Of a DNA stretch of 64,000 bases, positions 215 to 41,357 are shown one piece after another. This DNA comes from Hymenobacter aerophilus DSM 13606. Lineage in GTDB: Bacteria > Bacteroidota > Bacteroidia > Cytophagales > Hymenobacteraceae. The notes under the pieces are model-generated. The model was not told where the DNA came from, ran no database searches, and was given only the letters and a program-made list of their open reading frames with translations. Position numbers and translations under genes: made by a program. Numbering within the stretch: the stretch's first letter is position 1; each line of letters opens with the position of its first letter. Location: assembly GCF_000382225.1 (NCBI RefSeq), contig NZ_KB907801.1:62001-126000 (forward strand), given 5' to 3'.

Positions 215-631
215 TTATCTGCCGAAAATCAGCAGTGCCCCTACGGCCAGCAACTGCGCCCCTACAACCACCGCCTGCCGCCGCACCAGCTGCCGGGCCC
301 CGTACCAGCGGCTTTCCGGTGGGCGCGATGGTGGCGTAGGGCGACCCCGAAACTCAGCCAGCGCCGCGTCAAATTCGGCCGTAGCTTCGGGCTGCTCGTG
401 CAACAGGGCGAAGAACTCGGCATCGAGGGCCACGCGCCACGCGTAGTACTTGGCCAGCGCGGCCAGCAGCAAGGCGCCGACCAGCCCGACCACCACGCCT
501 GATTCCAGCGGCAGCAATGTTCGCCCCAAAGTGGCCAGCAGCAACACCGACGAGGCCCCATCGAACACCCGGCCGGCCCGCAAAAACCCCTGGGTTACGC
601 GGTAGATCATGGCGTTTTGGGTCTCAGGCAT
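215..631 (-). CDS. Small membrane protein at the end of the ynb-like operon
   Basis: A 138-residue protein I do not recognise. Hydrophobic stretches at about 27-42, 44-62 and 120-137 suggest three membrane segments. Between them lies a charged, acidic part (about 65-95) that is probably cytoplasmic. The start ATG (629-631) shares one base with the stop codon of the phosphatase gene upstream (TGATG), so the two are probably translationally coupled. That makes it the last gene of the lipid operon. No catalytic motif is visible. It may be an accessory subunit of the membrane enzymes encoded upstream, which is inference from position only. Confidence 0.6.
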   Translation of the reverse strand: MPETQNAMIYRVTQGFLRAGRVFDGASSVLLLATLGRTLLPLESGVVVGLVGALLLAALAKYYAWRVALDAEFFALLHEQPEATAEFDAALAEFRGRPTPPSRPPESRWYGARQLVRRQAVVVGAQLLAVGALLIFGR

Positions 632-1971
632 CAGCTTAGGGTGGGTTGAGATTCGACAGCCAAAGTGGCCTGATACGCGGCCAGTACTGCCAGATGCCGC
701 TCAGTAAGATGCACCTGGGGCCGGGCGGCCCGCAGCTGCGCTACGGCCTCGGCGGGCGTAGCGGCGCGGCCGGTAGCCAGCAGCCAGGCAGCCACTACCA
801 GCGCGCTCCGCGAGTAGCCCAGGGCGCAATGCACCAGTACCGGCCGGTGCGGCCACAGCCGGTGCAGCGCCGCTACGGCAGCCTGCAGCTCCTCTAAAGA
901 AGGCAGCACCAAATCCAGCAGCGGCACGCTCTGGTGGGGCCGGGCGCGGGCCGTTTTGCTGAGATTGAACTCGGCTGTGAGGTCGAGAACTGAACCGTAG
1001 GTGGGTGTGGGCCAGTCGGCGCGGCCGGGGGCGCGGCCCAGCCAGAGGCCGGGCAGCACCTCGGCCGCGGGCGCCTGCCGGCGCGTGAACAGGCGCGAGG
1101 AAATCCAGGCGCTCAGCCGGTAAGGGGCCAGCAACAGCCGGGCCGCGAAGCTCTGACGGCCATCGAGCTTCTGAAACACCGAGGCGCCCAGCCCAGCGTA
1201 GGCCAACCCCACAAGCAGCAGCGCCCCGGCCGGCCACAGCAGCAGCCAGCCCCAGCCGCCCAGGGCCGTAGCCGCGGCCAGCAGCACCGCCGCGCCCAGC
1301 CCGTAGCCAGCGGCCAGCCGGCGGCGCCAGGGCCGGTCGGCAGGCGCGCGTACCGGCTGCCAGGCCCGCGGGGCATCCGGAAAAAGATACAGGCAGCAAA
1401 CGCCCACCGCTGCGCCGGCTACGCCATCAATAAAATGATGCTGGAAGGTGGTGTAAACTGACAACGCAATCAACCCGAACCACACCGCCAGCAGCCCCCG
1501 CAACAGGCCCCGCGAGTGGCGCCAGTACACCAGCCCCACCAGCAGCGCCAGACTCACGTGCAATGAGGGCGCCTGGTTGTAAGGCTTATCGAACCCCGCC
1601 AGCACCTCAAACAGCCAGCCATTGAGCCCTGCCACGGCCGGCCGTACGAAGCTGAACTGCAGCGGAAACAGCAGAAACCCCAGCACCGACAGCGCGCTGG
1701 CACTCAGCAGGCGCCGGGCGTGGGCGTCCAATTCGGCCCGGCTGGCACACAGGAAAAGCGAGCCGGCATACAATGCATCGAGCGACATATACGGCACGAT
1801 AGTCCAGGCCCAGAACGGAATGCGGTGCTCCCAGCCGAACACCAGTGAACCAACGTGGCCCAGCTGACCCGTCCACCAGTTGGCCAGGCCGTAGGAGAGG
1901 AAGAAGAACGGCCCCAGCAGCAACAGCCACCCCAGCGCCCGCGGCCAGGGGCGGTTTCGGAAGAAGTGCAT
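631..1971 (-). CDS. ynbD: PAP2 - dual specificity phosphatase fusion (YnbD-like)
   Basis: A 446-residue membrane protein with two phosphatase modules. The N-terminal part has about six hydrophobic helices and PAP2-type motifs: PSLHVS near 135-140 and HHFID near 178-182. This is the lipid phosphatase / inositolphosphotransferase pattern. The C-terminal part is a cysteine phosphatase with the P-loop HCALGYSRS (Cys382, Arg388). This architecture matches E. coli YnbD. Together with the three genes upstream it forms a ynbABCD-like set. I start at ATG 1971 (MHFFRNRPW). The frame stays open to 2142, but that stretch runs through an intergenic palindrome and has no sensible protein features. Likely role: dephosphorylating a membrane lipid product of the operon. 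The substrate is unknown. Confidence 0.85.
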   Translation of the reverse strand: MHFFRNRPWPRALGWLLLLGPFFFLSYGLANWWTGQLGHVGSLVFGWEHRIPFWAWTIVPYMSLDALYAGSLFLCASRAELDAHARRLLSASALSVLGFLLFPLQFSFVRPAVAGLNGWLFEVLAGFDKPYNQAPSLHVSLALLVGLVYWRHSRGLLRGLLAVWFGLIALSVYTTFQHHFIDGVAGAAVGVCCLYLFPDAPRAWQPVRAPADRPWRRRLAAGYGLGAAVLLAAATALGGWGWLLLWPAGALLLVGLAYAGLGASVFQKLDGRQSFAARLLLAPYRLSAWISSRLFTRRQAPAAEVLPGLWLGRAPGRADWPTPTYGSVLDLTAEFNLSKTARARPHQSVPLLDLVLPSLEELQAAVAALHRLWPHRPVLVHCALGYSRSALVVAAWLLATGRAATPAEAVAQLRAARPQVHLTERHLAVLAAYQATLAVESQPTLS

Positions 1972-1992
1972 AAAGGGTGTCTGAACGGTTTT

Positions 1993-2058
1993 GCGCAGAG
2001 GGTTTCGCAGAGGTACGCAGTGAACTTTCTCCGCGTACCTCTGCGAAACCCTCTGCGC
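1993..2058. repeat. Perfect 26-bp inverted repeat (GCGCAGAGGG family)
   Basis: Arms at 1993-2018 and 2033-2058 are exact reverse complements around a 14-base loop. The element sits between the ynbC-like and ynbD-like genes, which read in the same direction. A further CTCTGCG copy follows at once (2060-2068). It lacks a clear T-tract, so it is more likely an interspersed palindrome than a strong terminator. Confidence 0.9.
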
Positions 2059-2086
2059 TCCTCTGCGGAAAAGATATTGGGTCCTG

Positions 2087-3913
2087 TTACTCTGCCGAAA
2101 CCGCTGCTTCCGCAGCTTCAGCAGGCACTGCTGCTGCTTCACCTACCCGCCGGGCGATGGACACCGTGAAGATGCCCCACTGGTCGGTCAGTTGGTCGAG
2201 CTTCTCGAAGCCGGCCTGGGCTACCAACTCGTCCATTTCGGCCTGCACGCGGCGGCGCATCACCCAGGCGCCGTTGTCGCGGTGGCTGGTAAGCGAGCGG
2301 GCAATCATTTCGAGCTGGGGGTGCCAGGGCTGATTGGTGTAGAGCAGGTAACCGCCCGGTGCCACGGCCCCGGCCAGCCCGGCCAGCGACCGGCGCACCA
2401 AGTCGTTATCGGCGAACAGCTCGTAGAGGCCCGACACGATAGCCAGGGTTGGGCGGGGCTGCAAAGCGGCCAAATCAGCCGCGTCGAAGGCGTCGCCCTC
2501 CTCAAACCGGGCAACGCTGGCCAGGCCCTGCTCGGCAATCAGGCGGCGGCCGTCGGCTACGTTGGCGGGGCTGTAGTCGCGCAGCAGGATTTGCTCAACC
2601 TGGCCGGGGTGCCGGGCGGCGGCGGCCAGCGCGTAGCGGCCGTGGCCGGCGGCAATATCGAGCAGGCGCACCGGCTGGCCCGAGTCGCGCAGCAGGGCTA
2701 TGGCCCGGCCGATGAGCTGCTCCAGATGAATGCGGCGGATGCGGATGCCGCGCCAGCCGATGCTGTCGAGAAACACGCCGTCCACGATCCGGCCGATGGG
2801 TGTGAGGCCCTGGCGGCGGTTCTGGTACACGTAATCGAGGGTGCTGCCCGAGTCGAAGCCGGTGGCCAGCCCGTTTTTGATGCCTTTGGAAAACCGGCCG
2901 CCCACCTTAATCCAGAACCGTCCCAGGGCCCAGTACAGCCGGGCCAGGGCCGAGCCGGCGGGCTGGCTCAGCTGGTCGAATTCGGCTTTGGTGAAGCCCT
3001 GCCGGTGAGCATCGAGCAGGGTCAGGGGCCGGGCCGGGGCCTCGGCGAAAACCCGCTCGATGAACTTGCGAGCCAGCGCAATAGGCTTGGCGCGGCCCAG
3101 CTCGCCCAGCGTGTCGTGGCGAAAGCCGGGGAAGCGGTGGATTTCCTTGATGGGGCTGCTCAGGTTGCCAAAAAAGCGGTCCTGGGGTTCCTCGTACACC
3201 ACCTGGTCGTCGCCCGAAATCAGGATTTGGGCGGGCACGTGGATGGCGGCGGCATCGGCCACCACGCGCTGGCCGGCGTCGGCCACATCGAGCAGGATGT
3301 TGGCCGCAATGGGCCGGGTAATCAGCGAATCAGCTTCGTAGGTGGCCAGGCGGGCGGGGTCCTGGGTGAGCTGGGTGGGCTTCACGTACGACTTCACGAA
3401 GTAGTTACCGCGCACCGCGTACAGCAGCCGCAGCCCCGCCAGCGCCCCCGGCACAATGAGGTTGATGCTAAAGGCCGGGGCCGCCAGCACCATGCCGCGC
3501 AGCCGGGGCGCGTAGTCGTGCACCCAGGTGGCCAGCGTCACGGCCCCGAAGCTCTGCCCCACGGCTACGATATTCTCCAGCGCAATGCCGTGGGTCTGGC
3601 CGATGTGGCGCATGAACTCGTCCACGTCTTTCACCAGCACGCCGTAGTTTTCGGCCGCCCCCCGCTCGCCATCCGACAGGCCCAGGCCGCGCGCATCCCA
3701 GGCAAAAAAATCGAAGCCCGGCAGGCCAAACTCGTCGGCCAGATGGGCCATGCGCCCGCCGTGCTCGTGCCCTCGATGGAACAGCACCACGGCCCGGCGC
3801 GGACCATCAGCCGGCTCGGTGGCCGGCCAGTGCCGGTAGAACAGGTCAGCGTTATCAAACGACGAAAAACGGCGCTCCTCGCAGGGGCGGGCGGTGGCGT
3901 AGGTGGGCTGCAT
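2087..3913 (-). CDS. ynbC: Alpha/beta hydrolase - SAM methyltransferase fusion (YnbC-like)
   Basis: A 608-residue soluble-looking protein with two enzymes in one chain. Residues 1-300 are a serine hydrolase of the lysophospholipase/S33 type: an HRGHEHGGR oxyanion-region motif near 46-54 and the nucleophile elbow GQSFG with Ser121. From about 405 there is a class I methyltransferase: motif I LLDIAAGHGR near 417-426, followed by an acidic residue, and a late APGGYLLYTNQPW strand. E. coli YnbC has the same order of domains. Starting at ATG 3913, it ends with an Ala-rich tail. Position in the operon suggests it acts on a phospholipid or its head group (acyl removal plus methylation), but no substrate is known. 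Confidence 0.88.
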   Translation of the reverse strand: MQPTYATARPCEERRFSSFDNADLFYRHWPATEPADGPRRAVVLFHRGHEHGGRMAHLADEFGLPGFDFFAWDARGLGLSDGERGAAENYGVLVKDVDEFMRHIGQTHGIALENIVAVGQSFGAVTLATWVHDYAPRLRGMVLAAPAFSINLIVPGALAGLRLLYAVRGNYFVKSYVKPTQLTQDPARLATYEADSLITRPIAANILLDVADAGQRVVADAAAIHVPAQILISGDDQVVYEEPQDRFFGNLSSPIKEIHRFPGFRHDTLGELGRAKPIALARKFIERVFAEAPARPLTLLDAHRQGFTKAEFDQLSQPAGSALARLYWALGRFWIKVGGRFSKGIKNGLATGFDSGSTLDYVYQNRRQGLTPIGRIVDGVFLDSIGWRGIRIRRIHLEQLIGRAIALLRDSGQPVRLLDIAAGHGRYALAAAARHPGQVEQILLRDYSPANVADGRRLIAEQGLASVARFEEGDAFDAADLAALQPRPTLAIVSGLYELFADNDLVRRSLAGLAGAVAPGGYLLYTNQPWHPQLEMIARSLTSHRDNGAWVMRRRVQAEMDELVAQAGFEKLDQLTDQWGIFTVSIARRVGEAAAVPAEAAEAAVSAE

Positions 3914-3962
3914 GGCTATCAGGGCTTAGGAGTTAGGAACTTAGGGATTAGGGAAAGAGGTA

Positions 3963-4066
3963 GTCATGCTGAGTGAAGCGGAGCGCAGTCGAAGCATCTC
4001 TACCGCTATGCTTATCCTGTCGACTGCAACGAAGCGGTGGAGATGCTTCGACAAGCTCAGCATGAC
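3963..4066. repeat. Interspersed palindrome, GTCATGCTGAG type
   Basis: An imperfect inverted repeat that begins GTCATGCTGAG (3963-3973) and ends CTCAGCATGAC (4056-4066). The inner arms carry CGAAGCATCTC and GAGATGCTTCG. It fills the gap between the PlsC-type and YnbC-like genes. It is one of ten copies in the window sharing the same 11-base ends apart from one variable base. The other close copy is at 38349-38462. Confidence 0.85.
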
Positions 4067-4794
4067 ACGTTTTTTGTGAATTCTTCTGATTTTTCTTCTG
4101 CTCCAGACTGGTCTTCATCTTCCTCCGCGGGTGCCGGTGGCGCTACTTTGCCGCGCAGATACTCGAAGGCGTTGCGCAGCGAAACCAGGAAATCGGCCTT
4201 ATCGGGGAGTAGCGGCACGGGCTGGCCCACGGCTACTTTCACCTGGAAAGGCACCGGCACGAAACTGCCGCGGGGCAGCGCGCGGCCCAATCCGTGCATG
4301 AATACCGGCACGATGGGCACCTCGGGAAAGCGCCGGGCCAGGTGCCAGATGCCGGGCTTGAGTTCGGCCAGCTGCTCGGGCTGCCCGCGCGTGCCTTCGG
4401 GGAAGATGAGCAGAATTTGGCCGGCTTCCAGGGCCCGGTAGCACGCTGAGAGCGGGTCGGCTTCGCCCTTCTGGGCCCCGCCGCGCACAATTGGTAGGAT
4501 GCCCACGAAGTTGCGGGCCAGCCACTCAAACCACTTCACTTTGCAGAAGTAGTCGGCGGCGGCGGCCGGCCGCACCCGCGGTACGCTCAGGAAGGGAAAC
4601 AAGGAGAGCAGGACCATGAAATCGAGGTGGCTGTTGTGGTTGGCTACCACAATGGCCGGGCCCTGGGCGGGCAGTCGCTCGCGGTGCCGCACCCGTAACC
4701 CCAGCCCCAGCAGCACCAGCGGGTAGGCCACGAACAGCATAAACAGCCACCGCAACACCGCTTGACCAGCTTTCAGGAGGGGAGTGGTGGGCAT
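4057..4794 (-). CDS. 1-acyl-sn-glycerol-3-phosphate acyltransferase (PlsC family)
   Basis: A 245-residue acyltransferase. It has the HX4D motif (His53, Asp58 in ANHNSHLDF) and the phosphate-binding FPEGTR motif at 131-136. These are the two hallmarks of PlsC enzymes, which acylate lysophosphatidate to phosphatidate at the membrane. A hydrophobic N-terminal segment (about 14-34) would anchor it. The last 25 residues are acidic and lysine-rich. Its stop codon lies inside the palindrome that follows. Between the CdsA-like and YnbC-like genes it would supply phosphatidic acid for the operon. E. coli ynbABCD has no such gene, so this looks like a lineage-specific addition. Confidence 0.88.
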   Translation of the reverse strand: MPTTPLLKAGQAVLRWLFMLFVAYPLVLLGLGLRVRHRERLPAQGPAIVVANHNSHLDFMVLLSLFPFLSVPRVRPAAAADYFCKVKWFEWLARNFVGILPIVRGGAQKGEADPLSACYRALEAGQILLIFPEGTRGQPEQLAELKPGIWHLARRFPEVPIVPVFMHGLGRALPRGSFVPVPFQVKVAVGQPVPLLPDKADFLVSLRNAFEYLRGKVAPPAPAEEDEDQSGAEEKSEEFTKNVSC

Positions 4795-4841
4795 TTGGTT
4801 GAGGAGCTAGGGGACTGGGAATGAGAAGCCAAGTACAGTCT

Positions 4842-4938
4842 GTCATTCTGAGCGCAGCGAAGAATCTCGCGTGCAATGGTAACCTTACTGTGAGGATATA
4901 CTTCAGCACGCGAGATTCTTCGCTGCGCTCAGAATGAC
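4842..4938. repeat. Perfect 33-bp inverted repeat, GTCATTCTGAG type
   Basis: Arms 4842-4874 and 4906-4938 are exact reverse complements with a 31-base spacer. It lies between the CdsA-like and PlsC-like genes, both on the minus strand. Same family as 5931-6027, 16182-16285, 41221-41321 and 45362-45510. Confidence 0.92.
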
Positions 4939-4957
4939 AAATGGTGGCCTGAGTCCT

Positions 4958-5890
4958 TCAATAATAGAAGTAATAGATGAAGTGGAAGAACAGCGGGGCA
5001 GTGTAAGTAAGGGAGTCGAGCCGGTCGAGGGCGCCGCCGTGGCCGGGCAGCAGGCGGCCGGAGTCCTTCACGCCGATGTCGCGCTTGATGGCCGATATCA
5101 CCACGTCGCCGGTGAAGCCGCAGAGGCTGATGAGCAGGCCCGCCAGCACCGCGTCGCGCGCGCTGAACGGCGTAAGCCAGGGCGCCAGCAGCCAGGCCAG
5201 CAGCGTGGTAGTGAGGATGCCGCCGAGCAGGCCTTCGAGGGTTTTGTTGGGGCTCACGCGGGGCGCAATGGCGCGGCGGCCCAGCAGCTTGCCCCACAGG
5301 AATTGCGCCACGTCGTTTAGTTGGGTGAGCACGAGCAGGTAGAACACCAGTAGCTCGCCGCGCACCGGCCCGTGGGCGCCGGCGTGTTCGGGTAAGGCCA
5401 GCAAATAAGCTAGATGACTGATGCTGAAAACGGTCGTCATCAGGCCCCAGTGCAGGGTGCCGGCGGCCCGCAAAAAGCCCCGGGTTTCGCCGGCCACCAC
5501 CATGCGCAGGGGTAGCAGCAGGAATACATACACCGGAATAAAGATGATGAACATGCCGTACCAGGCCATGTGCACCCACAGGTACTGCACCGGAATGGCC
5601 AGATAGGCCAGCAGCAGCGTAGGGTTGTCGGCGGGCCGCGTCGGCACCAGCGACACGAATTCCTTGAAGCCCAGATAACTCACGAAAGCCGTCAGGCCCA
5701 GCGCCACCAGCGGGTCGAAGCTCAGGGCCAGAAACAGCAGCCCCGCCAGCCACCACCACGTCTGAATCCGCAGCTTCACCGACGTGTAGCTGCGCTCCGG
5801 CTGCCGCCGAATCAGCAGCGCCGTAACGGCCGAGGCCACTACCAGCAGCGCCAGAATTCCCCCGAAAGCATACGCCAGAATGCCGTGCAT
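4958..5890 (-). CDS. ynbB: Phosphatidate cytidylyltransferase (CdsA/YnbB-like)
   Basis: A 310-residue, very hydrophobic protein with about eight membrane helices. Near the C-terminus (about 262-290) it carries the cytidylyltransferase signature: SAIKRDIGVKDSG followed by PGHGGALDRLDS. This matches S-x3-KR-x4-KD-x5-PGHGG-x2-DR-x-D. These enzymes turn phosphatidate and CTP into CDP-diacylglycerol at the inner membrane. Length is somewhat above the typical 270-285. It sits directly between a CDP-alcohol phosphatidyltransferase and an acyltransferase, as expected for a self-contained phospholipid branch. Whether this is the only CdsA of the cell or a second, dedicated copy like YnbB cannot be told from the window. 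Confidence 0.9.
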   Translation of the reverse strand: MHGILAYAFGGILALLVVASAVTALLIRRQPERSYTSVKLRIQTWWWLAGLLFLALSFDPLVALGLTAFVSYLGFKEFVSLVPTRPADNPTLLLAYLAIPVQYLWVHMAWYGMFIIFIPVYVFLLLPLRMVVAGETRGFLRAAGTLHWGLMTTVFSISHLAYLLALPEHAGAHGPVRGELLVFYLLVLTQLNDVAQFLWGKLLGRRAIAPRVSPNKTLEGLLGGILTTTLLAWLLAPWLTPFSARDAVLAGLLISLCGFTGDVVISAIKRDIGVKDSGRLLPGHGGALDRLDSLTYTAPLFFHFIYYFYY

Positions 5891-5930
5891 ATTTTAGCGG
5901 TGATGAGGTGAGGGGTGAGAAGTGAGAGGA

Positions 5931-6027
5931 ACGTCATTCAGAGCGAAGCGAAGAATCTCGCCAGGGGCCGACAGGGTGTCGTTTCGATGTCAGCCCGCGA
6001 GATTCTTCGCTTCGCTCTGAATGACGT
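5931..6027. repeat. Perfect 30-bp inverted repeat, GTCATTCAGAG type
   Basis: Arms 5931-5960 and 5998-6027 are exact reverse complements. The element separates the CDP-alcohol transferase and CdsA-like genes. The outer arm carries CATTCAGAG rather than CATTCTGAG, a variant shared with 41221-41321. Confidence 0.92.
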
Positions 6028-6049
6028 CCCTCCACTGACAACTGACACC

Positions 6050-6646
6050 TTACCCCAACGCCTTGCGGGCGCGGTTGAAGCAGGTGAGCAGCAACAGTAG
6101 CGCTAGGGCCCCGAAGAGGTAGTTGAGGAAGGGCCCGACCGGCAGCCCCAGGCCCACGGCCAGCGCCAGGGCGCCGAATACTACGGCCCGGTCGCTTTTG
6201 CCGGCGGGGCCCTCGTAGCGGCGTTCCGTGCCCACCACCTGGCCCAGCACCCCCACAAATTCGGTGAGCACCGCCAGCACCACCACCAGGCCCACCAGGG
6301 CCGCCGACGAGCCCGGCAGCAGGGCAAAGGGCGCGTACAGGGCCGCATCGGACACCACGTCGCCGGTTTCGTTGAGGATGGCGCCGATGCGGCTTTGCTG
6401 GTTGAACTCGCGGGCCAGTAGGCCGTCGATGGCGTTGAGGGCCATGCGCAGCAGCAGAAACACGGGCAGCAACCCCCAGGCCCAGCGGCTGCCGGGAGCC
6501 AGCCATAGCCAGCCGCCGTAAGCCACCGAAGCTGCCGCGGCGGCCACCGTTACGGCGTTAGCCGTAATGCCGGCGCGGTGCAGGCCCGCCAATACCGGCC
6601 GCAGCAACTGCTGGAAAAGGGGCTTGAGTTGGTAGATAGAAGGCAT
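6050..6646 (-). CDS. ynbA: CDP-alcohol phosphatidyltransferase (YnbA-like)
   Basis: A 198-residue membrane enzyme, first gene of the ynb-like operon. It carries the CDP-alcohol transferase signature DGLLAR, eight residues, then GAILNETGD. The family pattern is DG-x2-AR-x8-G-x3-D-x3-D, so the third aspartate is an asparagine here. I believe this N-E-x-G-D variant occurs in other YnbA-type proteins, but that needs an alignment. The enzyme would replace the CMP of CDP-diacylglycerol with an alcohol head group. I chose ATG 6646 (MPSIYQLKP). The frame is open to 6775, but that extra part is polar and has no family features. The alcohol substrate is unknown. Confidence 0.82.
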   Translation of the reverse strand: MPSIYQLKPLFQQLLRPVLAGLHRAGITANAVTVAAAAASVAYGGWLWLAPGSRWAWGLLPVFLLLRMALNAIDGLLAREFNQQSRIGAILNETGDVVSDAALYAPFALLPGSSAALVGLVVVLAVLTEFVGVLGQVVGTERRYEGPAGKSDRAVVFGALALAVGLGLPVGPFLNYLFGALALLLLLTCFNRARKALG

Positions 6647-6889
6647 GGCGGAAGATAGGGAACCCAGCGCCGCTTGCACGGCTACCAGGTAGGAAGGCTG
6701 TGCAAAAGTGCTGCAACGCCAGTCTGCATACAAAGTAGAAAGGCTGTTGCGCAGACTTCTGAAACGTGGATTCAATCCGGTGAAAACGCCCTATATATTA
6801 CTCAGGCTGTAAAAATCGACAACTCTATCAGACTTTACATAGATGCTTTCAGAGAGAGTAGAAAGTCCCCCTCACCCACCGAAAGCTCG
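6647..6889. other. AT-richer leader/promoter region of the ynb-like operon
   Basis: No gene is visible between the CDP-alcohol transferase start and the terminator of the TldE gene. The stretch 6780-6860 is clearly richer in A and T than its surroundings. On the minus strand a TACTTTG heptamer (6731-6737) resembles the Bacteroidota -7 element, but no TTG box was found at the usual distance. The operon promoter is probably somewhere here. Confidence 0.4.
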
Positions 6890-6922
6890 AAAGCCCATCC
6901 GGCAACCTGCCAGACGGGCTTT
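6890..6922. terminator. Terminator-like hairpin after the TldE gene
   Basis: AAAGCCC (6890-6896) pairs with GGGCTTT (6916-6922), with an inner GGCA/TGCC pair. It lies 31 bases past the stop codon of the minus-strand TldE gene. The T-run is better on the plus strand, so strength for the TldE transcript is uncertain. Confidence 0.55.
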
Positions 6923-6952
6923 TGAATAGCGAAATCAATTCAACCTCAGCGC

Positions 6953-8278
6953 TTATACCGCGTCCGAGAGGCTGGTAAACGTGAAGTCGCGAATCTTCAA
7001 CGGGGGCACGAGGTTGCCACCGATGCGCACCGGGCGGCCGATGGCCTCCACGTTGTTGAGCATGATGACCGGCGACTCGTTGAAGCGGAAGTTTTTGATG
7101 GGAAACTTGATCTGACCGTTTTCGATGTAGAACGTACCGTCGCGCGTCAGGCCGGTGTAGAGCAGCGTCTGCGGGTCCACGTCGCGGATGTACCACAGGC
7201 GCGTGACCAGGATGCCTTTGGCGGTGCCTTTGATCAGGTCCTGCACGCTTTGGGTGCCACCTTCCATAATCCAGTTGCCGGGGAAAGCCGTGGCGGGCTT
7301 GCCGCTTTTCTGGCCCCAGTAGCGCGAGTAGTAGAGGTTGGAAACTTTCCCCTTGTCCACCCAGGTCATGCGCTTCACGGGCAGGCCCTCGCCATCGAAC
7401 ACGCCGCTGGGCACCTCGGCATTCAAGGGGTCGGAGTAGATGGTGATGCGCTCATCGAAGAGCTTGTCGCCGAGGCGGTTTCCTCCGCCCTTCTTGCTCA
7501 GAAACGAGCGGCCCTCGTCGGCTTCGCGGGCCCCGAGGCTGTACATGAGGTTGTTGAGCAGCCCTTCATCCGAAGCCAGCGCGGCAGGCTCCAGAATGAC
7601 GGTGTACTTGCCGGGCTCCAGGGCCTTGGCGTTGCGCGAACCGGCCGCTTTGTCGGCCGCCAGCTGGGTCAGGTTTTTGGCGCTGAACTTACTGGCGTCG
7701 GTGTAGTCGGCCGTGGCGTAGCCCGAGCCCGTGCCGTCGGGCGTGCGCACCGTGATGCTGAAATCGACGTTGGTGCTCTGCTGGTAGGCCTCCAGGCCCT
7801 TGTTGTTGCGCAGGGCCTGAAAGTAGGCGCCGTCTTCGAGGTAGCCGGCGGCCGTCAGGTTCTTGGCCGCGCACAGCGCAATACTGTCGCCGGCCGCCTG
7901 GGCCCGGAAATCGGGCGTGATGGCGGCGGTGCTGGCGGCGTAGGCCGTGGGCGTGAGGTACTGCTGGGGCCCGAGCAGGGGCATGTACTCGGCGTCTTCG
8001 GGGGCGAGGCGGGCAATTTCCTCGGCCCGCTGCACGCAGCGGCGCAGCGTGGCATCGTCGAACTCGTTGCAGGTGGCAATGCCCGAGCGTTTGCCAAACC
8101 GCGCTTCCACGGCCAGACTCACGTTGTCGGTGGCGCCGGCCGTGCTCACCGAGTTGCGGGCGTAGCGCACGTTGCCGGTGGTGCGCCCGCTCAGGTTGGC
8201 TTGGCACTCATCAGCTTTACTGAATCCCAGCACCTTTTTCAGGATGGCCTGGGCTTCGTCTTTGGAAAGGATAGCCAT
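6953..8278 (-). CDS. tldE: TldE/PmbA-family protein, copy A
   Basis: A 441-residue member of the TldD/PmbA (TldE) family. In E. coli, TldD and TldE form a heterodimeric protease that trims microcin precursors and the antitoxin CcdA, and TldD holds the zinc. This copy lacks the HExxxH motif, as expected for the TldE partner. It shares long stretches with copy B at 10207-11541, such as GILVTRLWYIR, LLYTGLTRDGTFYIENGQIK and PPLKIRDFTFTSLSDAV at the end. It has no signal peptide (MAILSKDEAQAILKK). It is the downstream gene of the pair with TldD copy A. Substrate unknown. Confidence 0.88.
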   Translation of the reverse strand: MAILSKDEAQAILKKVLGFSKADECQANLSGRTTGNVRYARNSVSTAGATDNVSLAVEARFGKRSGIATCNEFDDATLRRCVQRAEEIARLAPEDAEYMPLLGPQQYLTPTAYAASTAAITPDFRAQAAGDSIALCAAKNLTAAGYLEDGAYFQALRNNKGLEAYQQSTNVDFSITVRTPDGTGSGYATADYTDASKFSAKNLTQLAADKAAGSRNAKALEPGKYTVILEPAALASDEGLLNNLMYSLGAREADEGRSFLSKKGGGNRLGDKLFDERITIYSDPLNAEVPSGVFDGEGLPVKRMTWVDKGKVSNLYYSRYWGQKSGKPATAFPGNWIMEGGTQSVQDLIKGTAKGILVTRLWYIRDVDPQTLLYTGLTRDGTFYIENGQIKFPIKNFRFNESPVIMLNNVEAIGRPVRIGGNLVPPLKIRDFTFTSLSDAV

Positions 8279-8289
8279 GGTTTTTATTT

Positions 8290-8384
8290 AAGCTGTTAGC
8301 TGAGAGCTATTAGCCGTTAGCTTATCGGCAGAGCTTCCTGACAGAACAAGAATCTAACAGCCAACAGCTAATAGCTAACAGCTT
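8290..8384. repeat. Imperfect palindrome, AGCTGTTAGCTG family
   Basis: TAAGCTGTTAGCTG near 8289-8302 and CTAATAGCTAACAGCTTA near 8368-8385 form the ends of an imperfect inverted repeat between TldD and TldE of pair A. Related half-elements occur near 20573-20610 and 38304-38318. Confidence 0.7.
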
Positions 8385-10032
8385 AAATTTTACGGGCGGT
8401 GTTGATGACGTTCACGTTGTTGAAGCGCGTGGTGGCCGAGCCGTGGCTCACGGCCGAGCTCTGGCTGGGCTGGCCCTTGCCATCGTTGAAGAAGCCCGCC
8501 AGCCGGTAGTCCGATGCGTCGCAGGAGCCGGCGCAGGAACCCCAGAATTCCAGCGTGTTGGTCTGGTAAGCCACATCTTCGAGCATTTCCGTGATTTTGC
8601 CCTTCTCAATGGCGTAGAATACCTGGCCGCCGAACTGCGAGTTGTAGCGCTGCTGGTCGATGGAGAACGAGCCGTTGCCGGCAATGTAGATGCCCTTGTC
8701 GACACCCTTCACCAGCTCATCGACGCTCATTTTGGCGGTGCCAGGCTTGAGGCTGATGTTGGGCATGCGCTGGAACTGCACATCCTGCCACGACTGCGAG
8801 TAGCAGCAGCCGTCTGACTCCTTCTGGCCCACAATCATGGCCTGGTCGCGGATTTTCTGGTAGTCCACCAGCTTGCCCTGGTCGATGATGTTCCACTCCT
8901 TGGTTTTCACGCCTTCGTCGTCCCAGCCCACGGCGCCCAGCGAGTTGGGCTGGAGCTTGTCGGCCACAATGTTCACCTGCTTCGAGCCGTAGGGCTGGCC
9001 CTTGGCCTTCCACTCCAGCGTGGCAAACGAAGTGCCGGCGTAGTTGGCCTCGTAGCCCAGCACCCGGTCCAGCTCCGTGGGGTGGCCGACCGATTCGTGG
9101 ATGGTCAGGCCCAGGTGGTGCGGGTCGAGCACGAGGTCGTACTTGCCGGGCACTACCGACTTGCAGGTGAGCTTCTGCTTGGCCTGCTTGGCGGCGCGGG
9201 CGGCGTCTTCCAGCATATCGTAGCTGTTCTTGTAGCCGATTACGTCGGAGCCCTGAGGGCCGGCTACCTTGTCGGCGGCCTTGGGCTGCAAGTACTCGTA
9301 GCCCATGCCCATCGGCGCGCTCAGGGCCGAGCGCGAGCGGAACTTGCCCGTGCCGCGGTCCACCACCGTGACGCCGAATGTGGGGAAGATGCGGTGAATA
9401 TCCTGGTCGATATAGGAGCCGTCGGTGCTGGCGAAATACTTCTGCTCGTTCACGGCAAACAGCACCGAGTTCACGAACGAAGCGCCGTTACTCAGGGCGG
9501 CGGCGTTGGTGGCCAGCAGCAAATCCACCTTGTCTTTAATCGGCACCTCGAAGGTGTTGATTTTGATGGGCGCCTTCCACGAAACCTCCCCGAAACCCTT
9601 TTGCGGGGCCAGCTGCACCTGTTCTTTCTGCACCTTGCTGTTGGCCTTGGCAATCTGCACGGCCAGCTGGGCCGCTTTGGCAATGCCCGTGTCCGTCACG
9701 GTGTTGGTGGCCGCGAAGCCCCAGGTGCCGTTGGCAATGACGCGCACGCCCACCCCGAAACTCTCGGAGCTGACGATGTTCTGCACCTGCTTTTCGCGGG
9801 TGAACACGCCCTGGTTGAGGTAGCGCCCGATGCGCACGTCGGCGTACGATGCGCCCGCCGATTTAGCGGCGTTCAGCGCCACATCGGCCAGGCGCTTTTT
9901 GGCGGCCACGTCGAGGCCGGGCTCCAGCAGGCGCATGGGGTCAACCAGGTCGCCGGCAAAACCCGGAATAGCGGGCAGCCACAGGGCGCTGGCGGCCAGG
10001 CCCGTCAGGCCCACAAAATCACGTCGTTTCAT
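8383..10032 (-). CDS. tldD: TldD-family metalloprotease with twin-arginine-like signal, copy A
   Basis: A 549-residue TldD-type protein with the zinc motif HESVGH (312-317), followed by PTELDRVLGYEANYAGTSFA. Cys500 or Cys504 in the late GSCAGSC stretch is a candidate third zinc ligand, since E. coli TldD uses HExxxH plus a late cysteine. The N-terminus MKRRDFVGLTGLAASALWLP has the RR-x-F pattern and hydrophobic core of a Tat signal, ending near GFAGD. Classical TldD is cytosolic, so export would be a real difference. Upstream and downstream genes are the TldE copies. It is about 80 percent alike by eye to copy B, pointing to a tandem duplication of the pair. Confidence 0.87.
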   Translation of the reverse strand: MKRRDFVGLTGLAASALWLPAIPGFAGDLVDPMRLLEPGLDVAAKKRLADVALNAAKSAGASYADVRIGRYLNQGVFTREKQVQNIVSSESFGVGVRVIANGTWGFAATNTVTDTGIAKAAQLAVQIAKANSKVQKEQVQLAPQKGFGEVSWKAPIKINTFEVPIKDKVDLLLATNAAALSNGASFVNSVLFAVNEQKYFASTDGSYIDQDIHRIFPTFGVTVVDRGTGKFRSRSALSAPMGMGYEYLQPKAADKVAGPQGSDVIGYKNSYDMLEDAARAAKQAKQKLTCKSVVPGKYDLVLDPHHLGLTIHESVGHPTELDRVLGYEANYAGTSFATLEWKAKGQPYGSKQVNIVADKLQPNSLGAVGWDDEGVKTKEWNIIDQGKLVDYQKIRDQAMIVGQKESDGCCYSQSWQDVQFQRMPNISLKPGTAKMSVDELVKGVDKGIYIAGNGSFSIDQQRYNSQFGGQVFYAIEKGKITEMLEDVAYQTNTLEFWGSCAGSCDASDYRLAGFFNDGKGQPSQSSAVSHGSATTRFNNVNVINTARKI

Positions 10033-10209
10033 AAATCACAGATGTTGCAGATGGTGCAGATGACACAGATTCGTTCAAGTACAGGGATAAAGCCGAATTA
10101 TAGATGTTGCAGATAACGGGCTGGCGCATAGCCGTTTTACCGAAAGTACAAGGTGCGTCCGGCAGAACGAATCTGCGTTATCCCATCATCTGCAACATCT
10201 GTGATTTTA
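10033..10209. repeat. Imperfect palindrome, CAGATGTTGCAGATG family
   Basis: ATCACAGATGTTGCAGATGG (10035-10054) pairs imperfectly with CATCTGCAACATCTGTGAT (10188-10206). The AGATTCGTT and AACGAATCT parts pair as well. It fills the gap between the two TldD/TldE pairs and reaches the stop codon of TldE copy B. Confidence 0.75.
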
Positions 10210-11541
10210 GACGGCGTCCGACAAGCTGGTGAAGGTGAAGTCGCGGATTTTGAGCGGGGGCACGAGGTTGCCGCCCACGCGCACGGGCTTGCCGATGGCT
10301 TCGAGGTTGTTGAGCATGATAATCGGGCTCTCGTTGAAGCGGAAGTTCTTCACCGGAAACTTGATTTGGCCGTTTTCGATGTAGAACGTACCGTCGCGCG
10401 TCAGGCCGGTATACAGCAGCGTCTGGGGGTCGACGGGGCGGATGTACCACAGGCGGGTTACCAGAATGCCCTTGGCCGTGCTCTTGATAAGGTCGTTTAC
10501 GCTCTGGGTGCCGCCTTCCATAATCCAGCCTCCCGGGCGCGGAATGTCGGGGATACCGGCCTTCTGGGCCCAGAAGCGCGAGGTGTAGAGGTTCTTCACC
10601 ACGCCCTTCTCAATCCAGGTCATCTTCTGCTGGGGCCGGCCGTCGCCCGAAAACACGAGGTCGGGCACCTCAGCGTTGGCGGGGTCGGAGTAGATAGTCA
10701 CGCGCTCATCGAAGAGCTTTTCGCCCTTGCGGTTGCCGCCGCCTTTTTTGCTGAGAAACGAGCGGCCTTCGTCGGCGTTGCGGGCGTCGAGGGCGCTCAT
10801 CAGCGCCTGCATCAGCGAGGCGTCGGTGTTGGCCACCAGCGCGGCAGGCTCCAGGATAACGGTGTACTTGCCGGGCTCCAGGGCCTTGGCATTGCGCGAG
10901 CCGGCCGCTTTGTCGGCCGCAATGCGGGTCAGGGTCTTGGCGTCGAACTTGCTGGCGTCGTTGTAGTCGGCCGTAGCGTAGCCCGAGCCGGTGCCGTCGG
11001 GCGTGCGCACCGTCACGCTGAACTCCAGGCCCGACTGCTGCTGGTAGGCCTCCAGGCCCTTGCTGTTGCGCTTGGCCACAAAGCCCACCGAGTCGTTGAG
11101 GAAGGCCGCCGAGCTGAGCTTGCGCTCATCGCAGATAATCATGCTGCTGCCCACCTGCGCGGCGCGGTAGTCGGGCGTGATGTCGGCTGTGGCCTTGGCG
11201 AAGCTGGCCGTGGTGGGCAGGTATTTCTGGGGCCCGAGCAGGGGCATGTACTCGGGGCTCTCGGGGGCGAGGCGGGCAATTTCTTCGGCCCGCGTTACGC
11301 AGGTGCGCAGCGTGGCGTCGTCGAACTGGTTGCAGGTAGCCACGCCCGAGCGTTTACCAAAGCGGGCTTCCACCGCCAAACTCACGTTGTCGATGCCGCC
11401 GCTGGTGCTGATGGCGTTGCGCGCCGAGCGCACGTTGCCGCCCGACTGCCCGCTGAGCGTGGCTTCGCACTCGTCGGCTTTGCTGAAGCCGAGCACTTTC
11501 TTAAGAATTTCCTGGGCTTCGGTCTGGGAAAGGATGGCCAT
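10207..11541 (-). CDS. tldE: TldE/PmbA-family protein, copy B
   Basis: A 444-residue paralogue of the TldE-type protein at 6953-8278. The second half is near identical by eye (EPGKYTVILEPAALVAN, FLSKKGGGNRKG, GGTQSVNDLIKSTAKGILVT). The region around 100-160 is the most divergent, which may mark the part that recognises the partner or the substrate. It has no zinc motif and no signal peptide. It forms pair B with the TldD gene upstream. The 204-base gap between them holds a 48-bp perfect palindrome, so coupling by translation is not possible. Confidence 0.87.
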   Translation of the reverse strand: MAILSQTEAQEILKKVLGFSKADECEATLSGQSGGNVRSARNAISTSGGIDNVSLAVEARFGKRSGVATCNQFDDATLRTCVTRAEEIARLAPESPEYMPLLGPQKYLPTTASFAKATADITPDYRAAQVGSSMIICDERKLSSAAFLNDSVGFVAKRNSKGLEAYQQQSGLEFSVTVRTPDGTGSGYATADYNDASKFDAKTLTRIAADKAAGSRNAKALEPGKYTVILEPAALVANTDASLMQALMSALDARNADEGRSFLSKKGGGNRKGEKLFDERVTIYSDPANAEVPDLVFSGDGRPQQKMTWIEKGVVKNLYTSRFWAQKAGIPDIPRPGGWIMEGGTQSVNDLIKSTAKGILVTRLWYIRPVDPQTLLYTGLTRDGTFYIENGQIKFPVKNFRFNESPIIMLNNLEAIGKPVRVGGNLVPPLKIRDFTFTSLSDAV

Positions 11542-11583
11542 ATGGTTAATGTGTTGATGCGTGGATACTTTGTTCTGGCGTGC

Positions 11584-11729
11584 GCCTCACCCCCTAGCCC
11601 CCTCTCCGAAAAAGGAGAGGGGGGAACTAGATGCTAGCTTTCTAAAATTAAAGCAGCCGTGACTAGACTAGAAAATTAGATTCTAGTTCCCCCCTCTCCT
11701 TTTTCGGAGAGGGGGCTAGGGGGTGAGGC
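11584..11729. repeat. Perfect 48-bp inverted repeat, CCCCCTAGCCCCCTCTCC family
   Basis: Arms 11584-11631 and 11682-11729 are exact reverse complements, with a 50-base spacer. The arms carry an inner smaller palindrome (CTCTCC / GGAGAG around AAAAA). It separates TldD and TldE of pair B. It is the only copy of this family in the window. Confidence 0.93.
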
Positions 11730-11745
11730 GTAACGCCAGAACAGC

Positions 11746-13395
11746 TTAAATTTTACGGGCGGTGTTGATGACGTTCACGTTGTTGAAGCGCGTGGTGGCC
11801 GAGCCGTGGCTCACGGCCGACACCTGGCTGGGCTGGCCCTTGCCGTCGAAGAAGGAGCCGAACAGCCGGTAGTCCGAGGCGTCGCAGATGGCCGCGCAGG
11901 AGTTCCAGAACTCCAGCGTGTTGGTCTGGTAAGCCACGTCTTCGAGCATGCCGGAAATCTTGCCCTTGTCGATGGCATAGAACACTTGGCCGCCGAACTG
12001 GGAGTTGTAGCGCTGCTGGTCAATCGAAAACGAGCCGCGGCCGGCAATGTAAATGCCCTTGTCCACCTTGCTAATCATCTCATCCACGCTCAGCTTGCTG
12101 GTGCCGGGCTTGAGGCTGATGTTGGGCATGCGCTGGAACTGCACCGTGCTCCACGAGTCGGCGTAGCAGCAGCCGTCCGACTGCTTCTGGTCGACGATGT
12201 GCGCCTGGTCGCGGATTTTCTGGTAATCCACCAGCTTGCCCTGGTCGATGATGTTCCACTCCTTGGTCGGCACGCCCTCATCGTCCCAGCCCACGGCGCC
12301 CAGCGAGTTGGGCTGCAGCTTGTCGGCCACAATATTGACGAGCTTCGAACCATAAGGCTGGCCCTTGGCGCGCCAGTCGAGCGTGGCGAACGAGGTGCCG
12401 GCGTAGTTGGCCTCGTAGCCCAGCACCCGGTCGAGCTCCGTGGGGTGGCCCACCGATTCGTGGATGGTCAGGCCCAGGTGGTTGGGGTCGAGCACGAGGT
12501 CGTACTTGCCGGCCGTTACCGATTTGCAGGTGAGCTTTTCCTTGGCCTGCTTGGCGGCCAGGGCGGCATCGGCCAGCATATCGAAGCTGTTGCGGTAGCC
12601 GGTGAGGCCGGTGCCGGCCGGGCCCGCAATGCGGTCGGCGGCTTTGGGCTGCAGGTACTCGTAGCCCATGCCCATTGGGGCACTCAACGCATCGCGCGAG
12701 CGGAACTTGCCGGTGCTCCTATCAATAGCCGTTACCGAGAAGTTGGGCCAGATGCGATGAATGTCCTGGTCGATGTAGGAGCCGTCGGTGCTGGCGAAGT
12801 ACTTCTGCTCGTTCACCTGAAATAGCACCGAATTCACGAACGAAGCGCCGTTATCCAGAGCCGCGGCATTGGTGGCCAGCAGCAAGTCCACCTTGTCCTT
12901 CACCGGCACCTCGAAGGCGTTCACCTGAATCGGGGTTTTCCAGCTCACCACGCCCTGGCCTTTCTGGGCGGCAAGCTGCACGGGCTCTTTCTGCACTTTG
13001 CTGTTAGCCTTGGCAATCTGCACGGCCAGCTGGGCCGCTTTGGCCAGGCCGGCTTCGGTTACGGTGTTGGTGGAGGCGAAACCCCAGGTGCCGTTGGCAA
13101 TAACGCGCACGCCGGCGCCAAAACTCTCGCCGCTGGCAATGTTCTGCACCTGCTTTTCGCGGGTGAACACGCTCTGGTTGAGGTAGCGCCCGATGCGCAC
13201 ATCGGCGTAGGAGGCCCCGGCCGATTTAGCGGTGTTCAGGGCCACATCGGCCAGGCGTTTTTTGGCGGCTACGTCGAGGCCGGGCTCCAGCAGGCGCGCG
13301 GGGTCTACGAGCGAGCCGCCCAGGCCCGGCACGGCCGGCAGCCACAGGGCCCCGGCAGCCAGGCCCGTCAGGCCCACAAAGTCACGTCGTTTCAA
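11746..13395 (-). CDS. tldD: TldD-family metalloprotease with twin-arginine-like signal, copy B
   Basis: A 549-residue paralogue of the TldD protein at 8383-10032, same length and same motifs: HESVGH at 312-317 and a late SCAAIC cysteine pair. The start codon is TTG at 13395. It is supported by the identical N-terminus of the two copies (MKRRDFVGLTGLAA), while copy A uses ATG. The RR-x-F motif and hydrophobic core again suggest Tat export. As first gene of the four it is preceded by a 270-base gap. That gap holds a possible weak promoter (TTG, 21 bases, TACCTTCT on the minus strand near 13437-13468) and a palindrome. Confidence 0.87.
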   Translation of the reverse strand: MKRRDFVGLTGLAAGALWLPAVPGLGGSLVDPARLLEPGLDVAAKKRLADVALNTAKSAGASYADVRIGRYLNQSVFTREKQVQNIASGESFGAGVRVIANGTWGFASTNTVTEAGLAKAAQLAVQIAKANSKVQKEPVQLAAQKGQGVVSWKTPIQVNAFEVPVKDKVDLLLATNAAALDNGASFVNSVLFQVNEQKYFASTDGSYIDQDIHRIWPNFSVTAIDRSTGKFRSRDALSAPMGMGYEYLQPKAADRIAGPAGTGLTGYRNSFDMLADAALAAKQAKEKLTCKSVTAGKYDLVLDPNHLGLTIHESVGHPTELDRVLGYEANYAGTSFATLDWRAKGQPYGSKLVNIVADKLQPNSLGAVGWDDEGVPTKEWNIIDQGKLVDYQKIRDQAHIVDQKQSDGCCYADSWSTVQFQRMPNISLKPGTSKLSVDEMISKVDKGIYIAGRGSFSIDQQRYNSQFGGQVFYAIDKGKISGMLEDVAYQTNTLEFWNSCAAICDASDYRLFGSFFDGKGQPSQVSAVSHGSATTRFNNVNVINTARKI

Positions 13396-16147: not shown

Positions 16148-16326
16148 TTAGTGACTTGGTGATTTAGTGACTATAAAGAACGTCATTCTGAGCAGCGCGA
16201 AGAATCTCGCGGGCTGACGTTGTAGGGATACGTAACGGTTGAAATTACTACAGCACGCGAGATTCTTCGCTTCGCTCAGAATGACAGGGCTTTTACCTTC
16301 ACTCATTCACCAAGTCACTCACTCAC
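16146..16326. repeat. Nested palindromes: TTAGTGACTTGGTGA outer, GTCATTCTGAG inner
   Basis: The inner element runs 16182-16285, GTCATTCTGAG to CTCAGAATGAC, with a mismatched block in the arms. An outer, less perfect pair (TTTAGTGACTTGGTG near 16147-16161 and CACCAAGTCACT near 16306-16317) surrounds it. The outer arm overlaps the last codons of the sigma54-type regulator gene. It separates that gene from McrB. Confidence 0.8.
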
Positions 16327-38348: not shown

Positions 38349-38462
38349 TCATGCTGAGCTTGTCGAAGCATCTCTACCGCTTCGTTGTCAAACTAACCTG
38401 ACGTTAGGATTACCACTGCGGTAGAGATGCTTCGGCTGCGCTCCGCTTCGCTCAGCATGACA
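38349..38462. repeat. Interspersed palindrome, GTCATGCTGAG type
   Basis: GTCATGCTGAG (38349-38359) and CTCAGCATGAC (38452-38462) are the ends. The inner GAAGCATCTCTACCGC pairs with GCGGTAGAGATGCTTC. It separates the adaptor and pump genes of the RND operon. It is asymmetric in the middle of the arm, as is the copy at 3963-4066. Confidence 0.85.
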
Positions 38463-41185: not shown

Positions 41186-41357
41186 GAGTTGCCAGTCGCC
41201 AGTTGCCAGCTGTCAGCAGGAACGTCATTCAGAGCGAAGCGAAGAATCTCGCTTCCAATTTTTGAACTGACTTCTCACAACGTCAGCACGCGAGATTCTT
41301 CGCTTCGCTCTGAATGACGTTCATGCTGGCAACTGGCGAATGGCGACTGGCAACTCT
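41186..41357. repeat. Nested palindrome: GAGTTGCCAGTCGCC outer, GTCATTCAGAG inner
   Basis: The inner arms 41221-41251 and 41291-41321 are exact reverse complements (31 bp). Outer arms GAGTTGCCAGTCGCCAGTTG (41186-41205) and GGCGACTGGCAACTC (41343-41357) pair imperfectly. The whole element ends 19 bases before the DUF72 start codon. Confidence 0.88.

Follow-up and report, generated by a model that had tools for sequence, protein, structure and literature searches.

A six-gene ynb-type cluster in Hymenobacter aerophilus: a candidate phospholipid pathway with an Asn/Asn motif in its CDP-alcohol phosphotransferase

The window analyzed here, a 64,000-nucleotide stretch of Hymenobacter aerophilus DSM 13606 (contig NZ_KB907801.1, positions 62,001 to 126,000; part of the 4.25-Mb, 62-contig assembly GCF_000382225.1), carried six adjacent minus-strand genes of the type known from the ynbABCD operon of Escherichia coli. 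Judged from sequences and structure models, there is a somewhat better than even chance that these genes encode a dedicated phospholipid pathway beside the housekeeping one, in which the YnbA-like enzyme has a predicted remodeled metal site and likely uses an acceptor other than inositol phosphate. The first gene (A, 6050–6646) encoded a YnbA-like cytidine diphosphate (CDP)-alcohol phosphotransferase of 198 aa (PF01066, 39.6 bits against a cut-off of 22). It was followed by B (4958–5890), encoding a 310-aa YnbB/CdsA-like CDP-diacylglycerol synthase homologue (PF01148, 216.5 bits, above cut-off) with the CdsA C-terminal signature KRDIGVKDSGRLLPGHGGALDRLD, and by the plsC gene (P, 4057–4794), encoding a PlsC-type acyltransferase of 245 aa with HNSHLD and FPEGTR motifs (PF01553, 89.6 bits). 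The product of C (2087–3913) was a 608-aa YnbC-like fusion of a monoacylglycerol-lipase-like alpha/beta-hydrolase (PF12146, 204.9 bits) and a class I methyltransferase (PF12147, 467.6 bits against a cut-off of 21). That of D (631–1971) was a 446-aa YnbD-like fusion of a PAP2_3 membrane phosphatase/transferase and a dual-specificity phosphatase with the motif HCALGYSR (PF14378, 47.4 bits; PF00782, 45.5 bits; both above cut-off). The last gene (S, 215–631) overlapped the preceding ynbD-like gene by one base and encoded a small membrane protein of 138 aa with two strongly hydrophobic stretches in its hydropathy plot.

Pfam matches and comparison with ynbABCD of E. coli K-12 MG1655 (b1408–b1411), fetched for this purpose, bore out the preliminary description, which had recognized four protein types in ynbABCD order on one strand. 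The A, B, C and D types were present in that order with both fusions, and identity to the E. coli proteins over nearly full length was 50% for YnbA, 46% for YnbB, 52% for YnbC and 44% for YnbD. Recurrence was examined in 81 loci, consisting of E. coli and the best 80 of at least 530 confirmed places from a YnbC alignment scan with one genome per species, a sample biased to relatives of the query YnbC. All six genes occurred together in 75 of the 81 loci, in two main orders; the joint presence that had been proposed to exceed chance was thus confirmed, and the set recurs across bacterial genomes, many of them from Pseudomonadota. The order A-C-D-S-P-B was found in 59 loci (Pseudomonas, Mesorhizobium, Lysobacter, Cupriavidus and others). 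The order A-B-P-C-D-S, that of the window with plsC between B and C, was found in eight related loci (three Hymenobacter, Chromobacterium, Aquitalea, Chitiniphilus, Andreprevotia and one metagenome-assembled genome). B and P were divergent in six Burkholderia loci, and A was divergent in two Ochrobactrum loci. The six incomplete loci were E. coli (without P and S), Aquabacterium (P not found), Pseudochrobactrum (S not found) and three on short contigs ending within the set. The A-C-D-S-P-B clusters shared all six genes with the window and differed in gene order, and in the five such loci compared YnbB was 41–45% and PlsC 31–38% identical to the window proteins. Since the genes stay together in rearranged orders, the pattern points to one pathway. 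In loci L044 and L046, some of these genes overlapped or almost touched.

The preliminary description had regarded PlsC as a local insertion and the small membrane protein as a local addition, and neither idea held. The plsC gene was present in 77/81 loci (78 of 82 rows; counts over 82 rows are the 81 loci plus the window) and was absent from E. coli. S was also absent from E. coli and was detected by profile in 77/81 loci, in 76 of which it ended approximately 300–800 bases past D; a single-sequence search missed it or scored below 20 bits in 34/81 loci. YnbA was found in 80/81 loci, and in the remaining one (L018) the contig end cuts it off. PlsC and S are therefore core members of the set, and because they recur across loci, ynbABCD of E. 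coli is a reduced form. E. coli shares with the window the four protein types, their order, the fusions and the Asn/Asn motif of YnbA described below, and differs in being without PlsC and S, whereas the window holds a complete set in another phylum.

The most distinctive feature of the cluster was the YnbA active-site motif. CDP-alcohol phosphotransferases carry the four-aspartate motif D1xxD2GxxAR...GxxxD3xxxD4, to which YnbA did not conform. Its signature in the window was NAIDGLLARE...GAILNETGDV, in which Asn71 and Asn92 replace D1 and D3, and Asp74 and Asp96 are kept. Counted by alignment column, as was all catalytic-residue conservation here, N71, D74, N92, E93 and D96 were each found in 81/81 YnbA sequences (E. 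coli included), all of which followed the consensus N-A-x-D-G-x-x-A-R-E ... L-N-E-x-x-D. A control census took every PF01066 match in 20 of the 80 locus genomes, picked by hand for spread (77 proteins), and in H. aerophilus itself (two proteins). Among these 79 proteins, 57 had Asp/Asp and 22 had Asn/Asn, the latter being 21 YnbA and one paralogue. Both aspartates were present in 57/58 of the non-YnbA CDP-alcohol phosphotransferases of the 21 genomes, the exception being this paralogue (L164) in the ynb neighborhood of Xanthomonas bonasiae. The Asn/Asn change is thus confined, in this sample, to YnbA and one neighboring gene.

A second gene resembling a CDP-alcohol phosphotransferase was also seen in Xanthomonas and Lysobacter clusters (L011, 14568–15680; L021, 8420–9073; L029, 15024–15776). 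In L011 and L021 its product had Asn at D1, Asn or Ser at D3 and Arg after D4, and the gene was preceded by one for a Gly-rich membrane protein; the L029 gene is known from similarity alone.

In MtPgsA1, as described in PMC6506517, D1, D2 and D3 bind Mg-1, D3 and D4 bind Mg-2, and D4 is the presumed base. Because D1 and D3 bind Mg in that enzyme, the Asn change strikes the metal site. The oxygen of Asn can still bind Mg. We infer that YnbA is active with a remodeled site, whose Mg ions would be held by Asp74 and Asp96, by both Asn and perhaps by the invariant Glu93. The replacement of two of the four metal-ligand aspartates in every YnbA could also mean that the protein is a pseudoenzyme, serving the other enzymes as a lipid-binding or scaffold subunit. 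We consider this quite unlikely, since D2, G1, AR, G2, D4 and the basic pocket were invariant in 32/32 aligned YnbA sequences, whereas decaying sites drift, and since the chemistry of Asn allows Mg binding.

The YnbA model (pLDDT 91.6) belonged to the CDP-alcohol phosphotransferase fold, in agreement with Pfam, and Foldseek gave a probability of 1.00 to several structures of the family. The closest fold was that of RsPIPS (5d92, TMq 0.80), compared with TMq values of 0.39–0.49 to phosphatidylglycerol (PG)-phosphate synthase and 0.34–0.37 to phosphatidylserine (PS) synthase. R142, Y144, G146-P147, G149-K150-S151-D152-R153-A154 and R192 were invariant in the 32 aligned YnbA sequences and likely form the acceptor pocket; R142, K150, R153 and R192 would then bind an anionic or zwitterionic group of the acceptor. 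The Arg of the GKSDR motif (R153) aligned with R155 of MtPgsA1, so that one phosphate-binding Arg is kept, and a phosphorylated acceptor is nevertheless disfavored. R94 of MtPgsA1, which follows D4, is needed for inositol phosphate and is conserved in such enzymes (PMC6506517). At the equivalent position the 81 YnbA sequences had Val (60), Ile (18), Leu (2) or Ala (1), and neither Arg nor Lys. In the census, where DPxAD proteins were taken as PgsA-type and DSLxD proteins as PssA-type (Lys after D4 was kept out of the definition), this residue was Lys in 20/20 DPxAD proteins, hydrophobic in 25/25 DSLxD proteins, Ala, Tyr, Leu, Met or Ile in 12 others, and Val, Ile or Leu in 21/21 YnbA. An NCBIfam check of these types placed one DPxAD protein above the pgsA cut-off and two DSLxD proteins above the pssA cut-off. 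YnbA therefore looks like enzymes with an unphosphorylated acceptor. A phosphorylated acceptor needing a later phosphatase is disfavored because D4 of YnbA is followed by a hydrophobic residue, like D4 of PssA, and not by Lys or Arg as in PgsA and phosphatidylinositol phosphate (PIP) synthase. A plain PgsA duplicate was rejected for the missing Lys after D4 and for a fold nearer to PIP synthase than to PG-phosphate synthase.

The fold match, together with the best NCBIfam matches (archaetidylinositol-phosphate synthase, 74.9 bits; PIP synthase, 60.1 bits), would fit a phosphatidylinositol pathway, in which YnbA is a PIP synthase and the YnbD phosphatase yields phosphatidylinositol. A pairing of PIP synthase and phosphatase exists in Bacteroides thetaiotaomicron (PMC9246714). 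Those scores were far under the cut-offs of 180 and 170 bits, and the R94 position was Val, Ile, Leu or Ala throughout. Moreover, inositol-phosphate synthase (PF01658) had no match in H. aerophilus and none in 19/20 ynb genomes, Mesorhizobium ciceri having one; E. coli was not among the matching controls. Uptake of external inositol could bypass this last point, and we regard the phosphatidylinositol pathway as very improbable; an inositol head group was rejected on the NCBIfam score, the R94 position and the inositol-phosphate synthase search. Compared with RsPIPS and MtPgsA1, YnbA is alike in fold (RsPIPS), in size, in D2 and D4 and in the Arg matching MtPgsA1 R155, and differs in the Asn at D1 and D3, in the Val at the R94 equivalent and in a host without inositol-phosphate synthase. 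The B. thetaiotaomicron cluster BT_1522–BT_1526 is likewise a Bacteroidota cluster combining a CDP-alcohol phosphotransferase, a lipid phosphatase and more lipid enzymes. It differs in that its phosphatase is PgpA-like and not a PAP2–dual-specificity fusion, and the passages of PMC9246714 on it describe no hydrolase-methyltransferase. The window cluster, for its part, is without inositol-phosphate synthase.

In the dedicated phospholipid pathway that we favor, PlsC would make phosphatidate from lysophosphatidate, for conversion to CDP-diacylglycerol by the YnbB-like enzyme. The phosphatidyl group would then likely be moved by the YnbA-like enzyme to the acceptor, likely not inositol phosphate and probably unphosphorylated. 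Deacylation, methylation and dephosphorylation of lipids of the pathway would likely be the tasks of the YnbC- and YnbD-like enzymes. The preliminary description had outlined a lipid branch of this kind; its chain from PlsC through CdsA to the CDP-alcohol phosphotransferase remains the natural reading, whereas the action of the phosphatases on its product became uncertain with the hydrophobic residue after D4 of YnbA. Two CDP-alcohol phosphotransferases were found in H. aerophilus, YnbA and a PssA, so the cluster would give this bacterium a second lipid derived from CDP-diacylglycerol. Phosphatidylglycerol may be absent from it, as neither of the two is a PgsA. Three other Hymenobacter genomes searched also had two CDP-alcohol phosphotransferases each.

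Residues expected for catalysis were conserved in the partner enzymes. In YnbB, K269, R270, K275, D276, H284 and D289 were present in 80/80 rows and the last Asp of the signature in 79/80. PlsC had H53 and D58 (HX4D) in 78/78 rows and FPEGTR in all displayed alignment rows but one (FPEGSR in L010); it scored 70.4 bits against the 1-acylglycerol-3-phosphate acyltransferase model TIGR00530, below the cut-off of 102.95, and its substrate is thus putative. The YnbC hydrolase had a monoacylglycerol-lipase fold by model comparison, and S121, D236 and H266, which we take to be the catalytic triad, in 82/82 rows. Structure matches of the whole YnbC model all came from the hydrolase part. The pattern DxAAGHGR matched 79/82 rows. 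The methyltransferase part gave weak PDB matches (9sls, E 1.2e-4; 24uw, a farnesyl diphosphate (FPP) methyltransferase, E 0.036) that were not used to assign a substrate. In YnbD, H138, H179 and D182 were found in 82/82 rows and C382 and R388 in 81/82 (one gap); we infer that the phosphatase domain lies on the cytoplasmic side and the PAP2 domain on the periplasmic side. At residue 381, before the catalytic Cys, 67 of 82 rows had Cys and 10 had His, the other five having a different residue or a gap, and the His381 rows among 13 displayed were those of loci in A-B order and of E. coli. Anti-phage defense was rejected as a role of the cluster, as the sole PADLOC match among the six proteins, mad2 (2.3e-7), fell on the methyltransferase domain and was taken to be generic.

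The same parts could serve remodeling or turnover, with the YnbC lipase stripping acyl chains, PlsC re-acylating, the phosphatases and the CdsA-like enzyme recycling phosphatidate, and YnbA as an accessory. The monoacylglycerol-lipase fold of YnbC, the clustered acyltransferase, the two phosphatase domains of YnbD and the altered YnbA site are consistent with such a cycle. We nevertheless judge it unlikely, since the presence of YnbA in 80/81 loci and its invariant core exceed what an accessory role needs, and since a plain remodeling cycle leaves the methyltransferase without a function.

Another role has been described for YnbB itself. The E. coli enzyme (gene at 8227–9123 of L003) is reported to make CDP-diacylglycerol in vitro (PMC7018664), and its overproduction raises MPIase, for which it has been called a backup (PMC6362211, PMC7018664). 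The cluster might accordingly supply CDP-diacylglycerol for a glycolipid such as MPIase, with the YnbB-like enzyme making GlcNAc-PP-DAG and the other genes tuning or recycling it. Knockout of ynbB did not significantly change MPIase (PMC6362211), and the constant partners were a CDP-alcohol phosphotransferase, an acyltransferase, a lipase-methyltransferase, phosphatases and S; no search was aimed at glycosyltransferases. We rate this supply role as improbable, a shade more so than a YnbA pseudoenzyme. The window protein belongs to the same CdsA-like family as the YnbB of MPIase synthesis and has the signature intact; the difference is that the cluster suggests its CDP-diacylglycerol feeds YnbA, which the YnbB passages of the MPIase papers do not mention. 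The gene ynbB was also among five picked out by a transposon screen concerned with phosphoglyceride-linked enterobacterial common antigen, for the synthesis of which it was dispensable (PMC8609368).

A literature search, with subscription papers mostly outside its reach, found no paper on ynbABCD as a lipid pathway, and the function of the operon is not established in the papers found. In K-12, BglJ-RcsB is reported to turn on ynbA (PMC12871917). Because E. coli K-12 carries the set, the best-known bacterium may have an entire lipid branch that has escaped notice. The six-gene form reveals the parts that E. coli is without, PlsC and S, and gives YnbB in YnbA a likelier partner than an MPIase backup role would. 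If active, an Asn/Asn site would alter the view of what catalysis needs in a family that produces phospholipids across all three domains. A bolder proposal, held tentatively and with clear doubt, is that YnbA forms a separate class of CDP-alcohol phosphotransferase with a two-Asp, two-Asn site, and that the product of the six-gene module is a methylated phospholipid whose head group is new to bacteria, the module having spread in Pseudomonadota, been reduced in E. coli and been passed into Hymenobacter.

The cluster was sporadic among relatives of its host. At E <= 1e-40, PF12147 was found in 1/395 Bacteroidota genomes, H. aerophilus itself. Within the genus it was found in 10/120 genomes; YnbA was present in the same ten and shared a contig with YnbC in nine. 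In two other Hymenobacter loci (L004 and L005), YnbC was 90–91% and the neighboring TldD-like protein 97–98% identical to those of the window, and the cluster was flanked, as in H. aerophilus, by the TldD-like gene and by what we take to be a DUF4159 gene. Among 22 members of the genus that had no PF12147, the distance between these two flanking genes was 0.1–3.2 kb in 21, the 22nd having neither match, compared with 6.8 kb in H. aerophilus. In the Hymenobacter locus L006 the cluster lay elsewhere, and neither flanking gene was found within its 20 kb. The A and B trees divided according to gene order and grouped Hymenobacter with Chromobacteriaceae, Chitinibacteraceae and E. coli (A, 99, starred; B, 79, unstarred). 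The host lineage likely acquired the cluster horizontally from Pseudomonadota, given its sporadic presence in Bacteroidota and in the genus and the short flanking junction in genus members without the set. In L004 (Hymenobacter sp. CCM 8763, 11931–13270), the YnbD match ran across two overlapping frames, owing to a frameshift either in the gene itself or in the assembly.

Several observations weigh against a single dedicated pathway with this history. Unlike the A and B trees, the C tree set Hymenobacter apart from the group with A-B-P order, and C and D identities to that group did not exceed those to the rest; owing to this disagreement, the parts may have mixed histories. P and S are not always needed, as E. 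coli is without both and Aquabacterium without P. Loss of two metal ligands could mean that YnbA has no catalysis, and in hCEPT1 the substitutions D136A and D154A in the same motif almost abolish activity (PMC10156783). The E. coli ynbB knockout grew like its parent and YnbB could not replace CdsA (PMC6362211), and according to a review the knockout has no phospholipid defect (PMC7018664). Activity of YnbA, YnbC or YnbD was not shown anywhere in the literature searched. Finally, hairpin elements of 65–107 bases occupied four of the five gaps among the six genes, so that co-transcription is not assured. They lay between A and B (5926–6032), B and plsC (4841–4939), plsC and C (3988–4052) and C and D (1993–2058).

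Two of the four gap hairpins were of one sequence type, which also occurred at 16258 and 41226–41291, and a second type was repeated at 38350–38424. A search of the window for RNA elements gave none above threshold. Upstream of the cluster, at 6953–13395, there were two tandem pairs of PmbA/TldD-like metallopeptidase genes (two recognized by Pfam, two as open reading frames); the first TldD-like protein had one to three matches at E <= 1e-60 in 21/22 other genus members. Below window position 191, four gene types followed S on the same strand (1260–8191 of the host locus), presumably encoding DUF4159, MoxR-like ATPase, DUF58 and VWA-type membrane proteins. Read-through from S into these genes is possible, because the next gene starts only 23 bases later.

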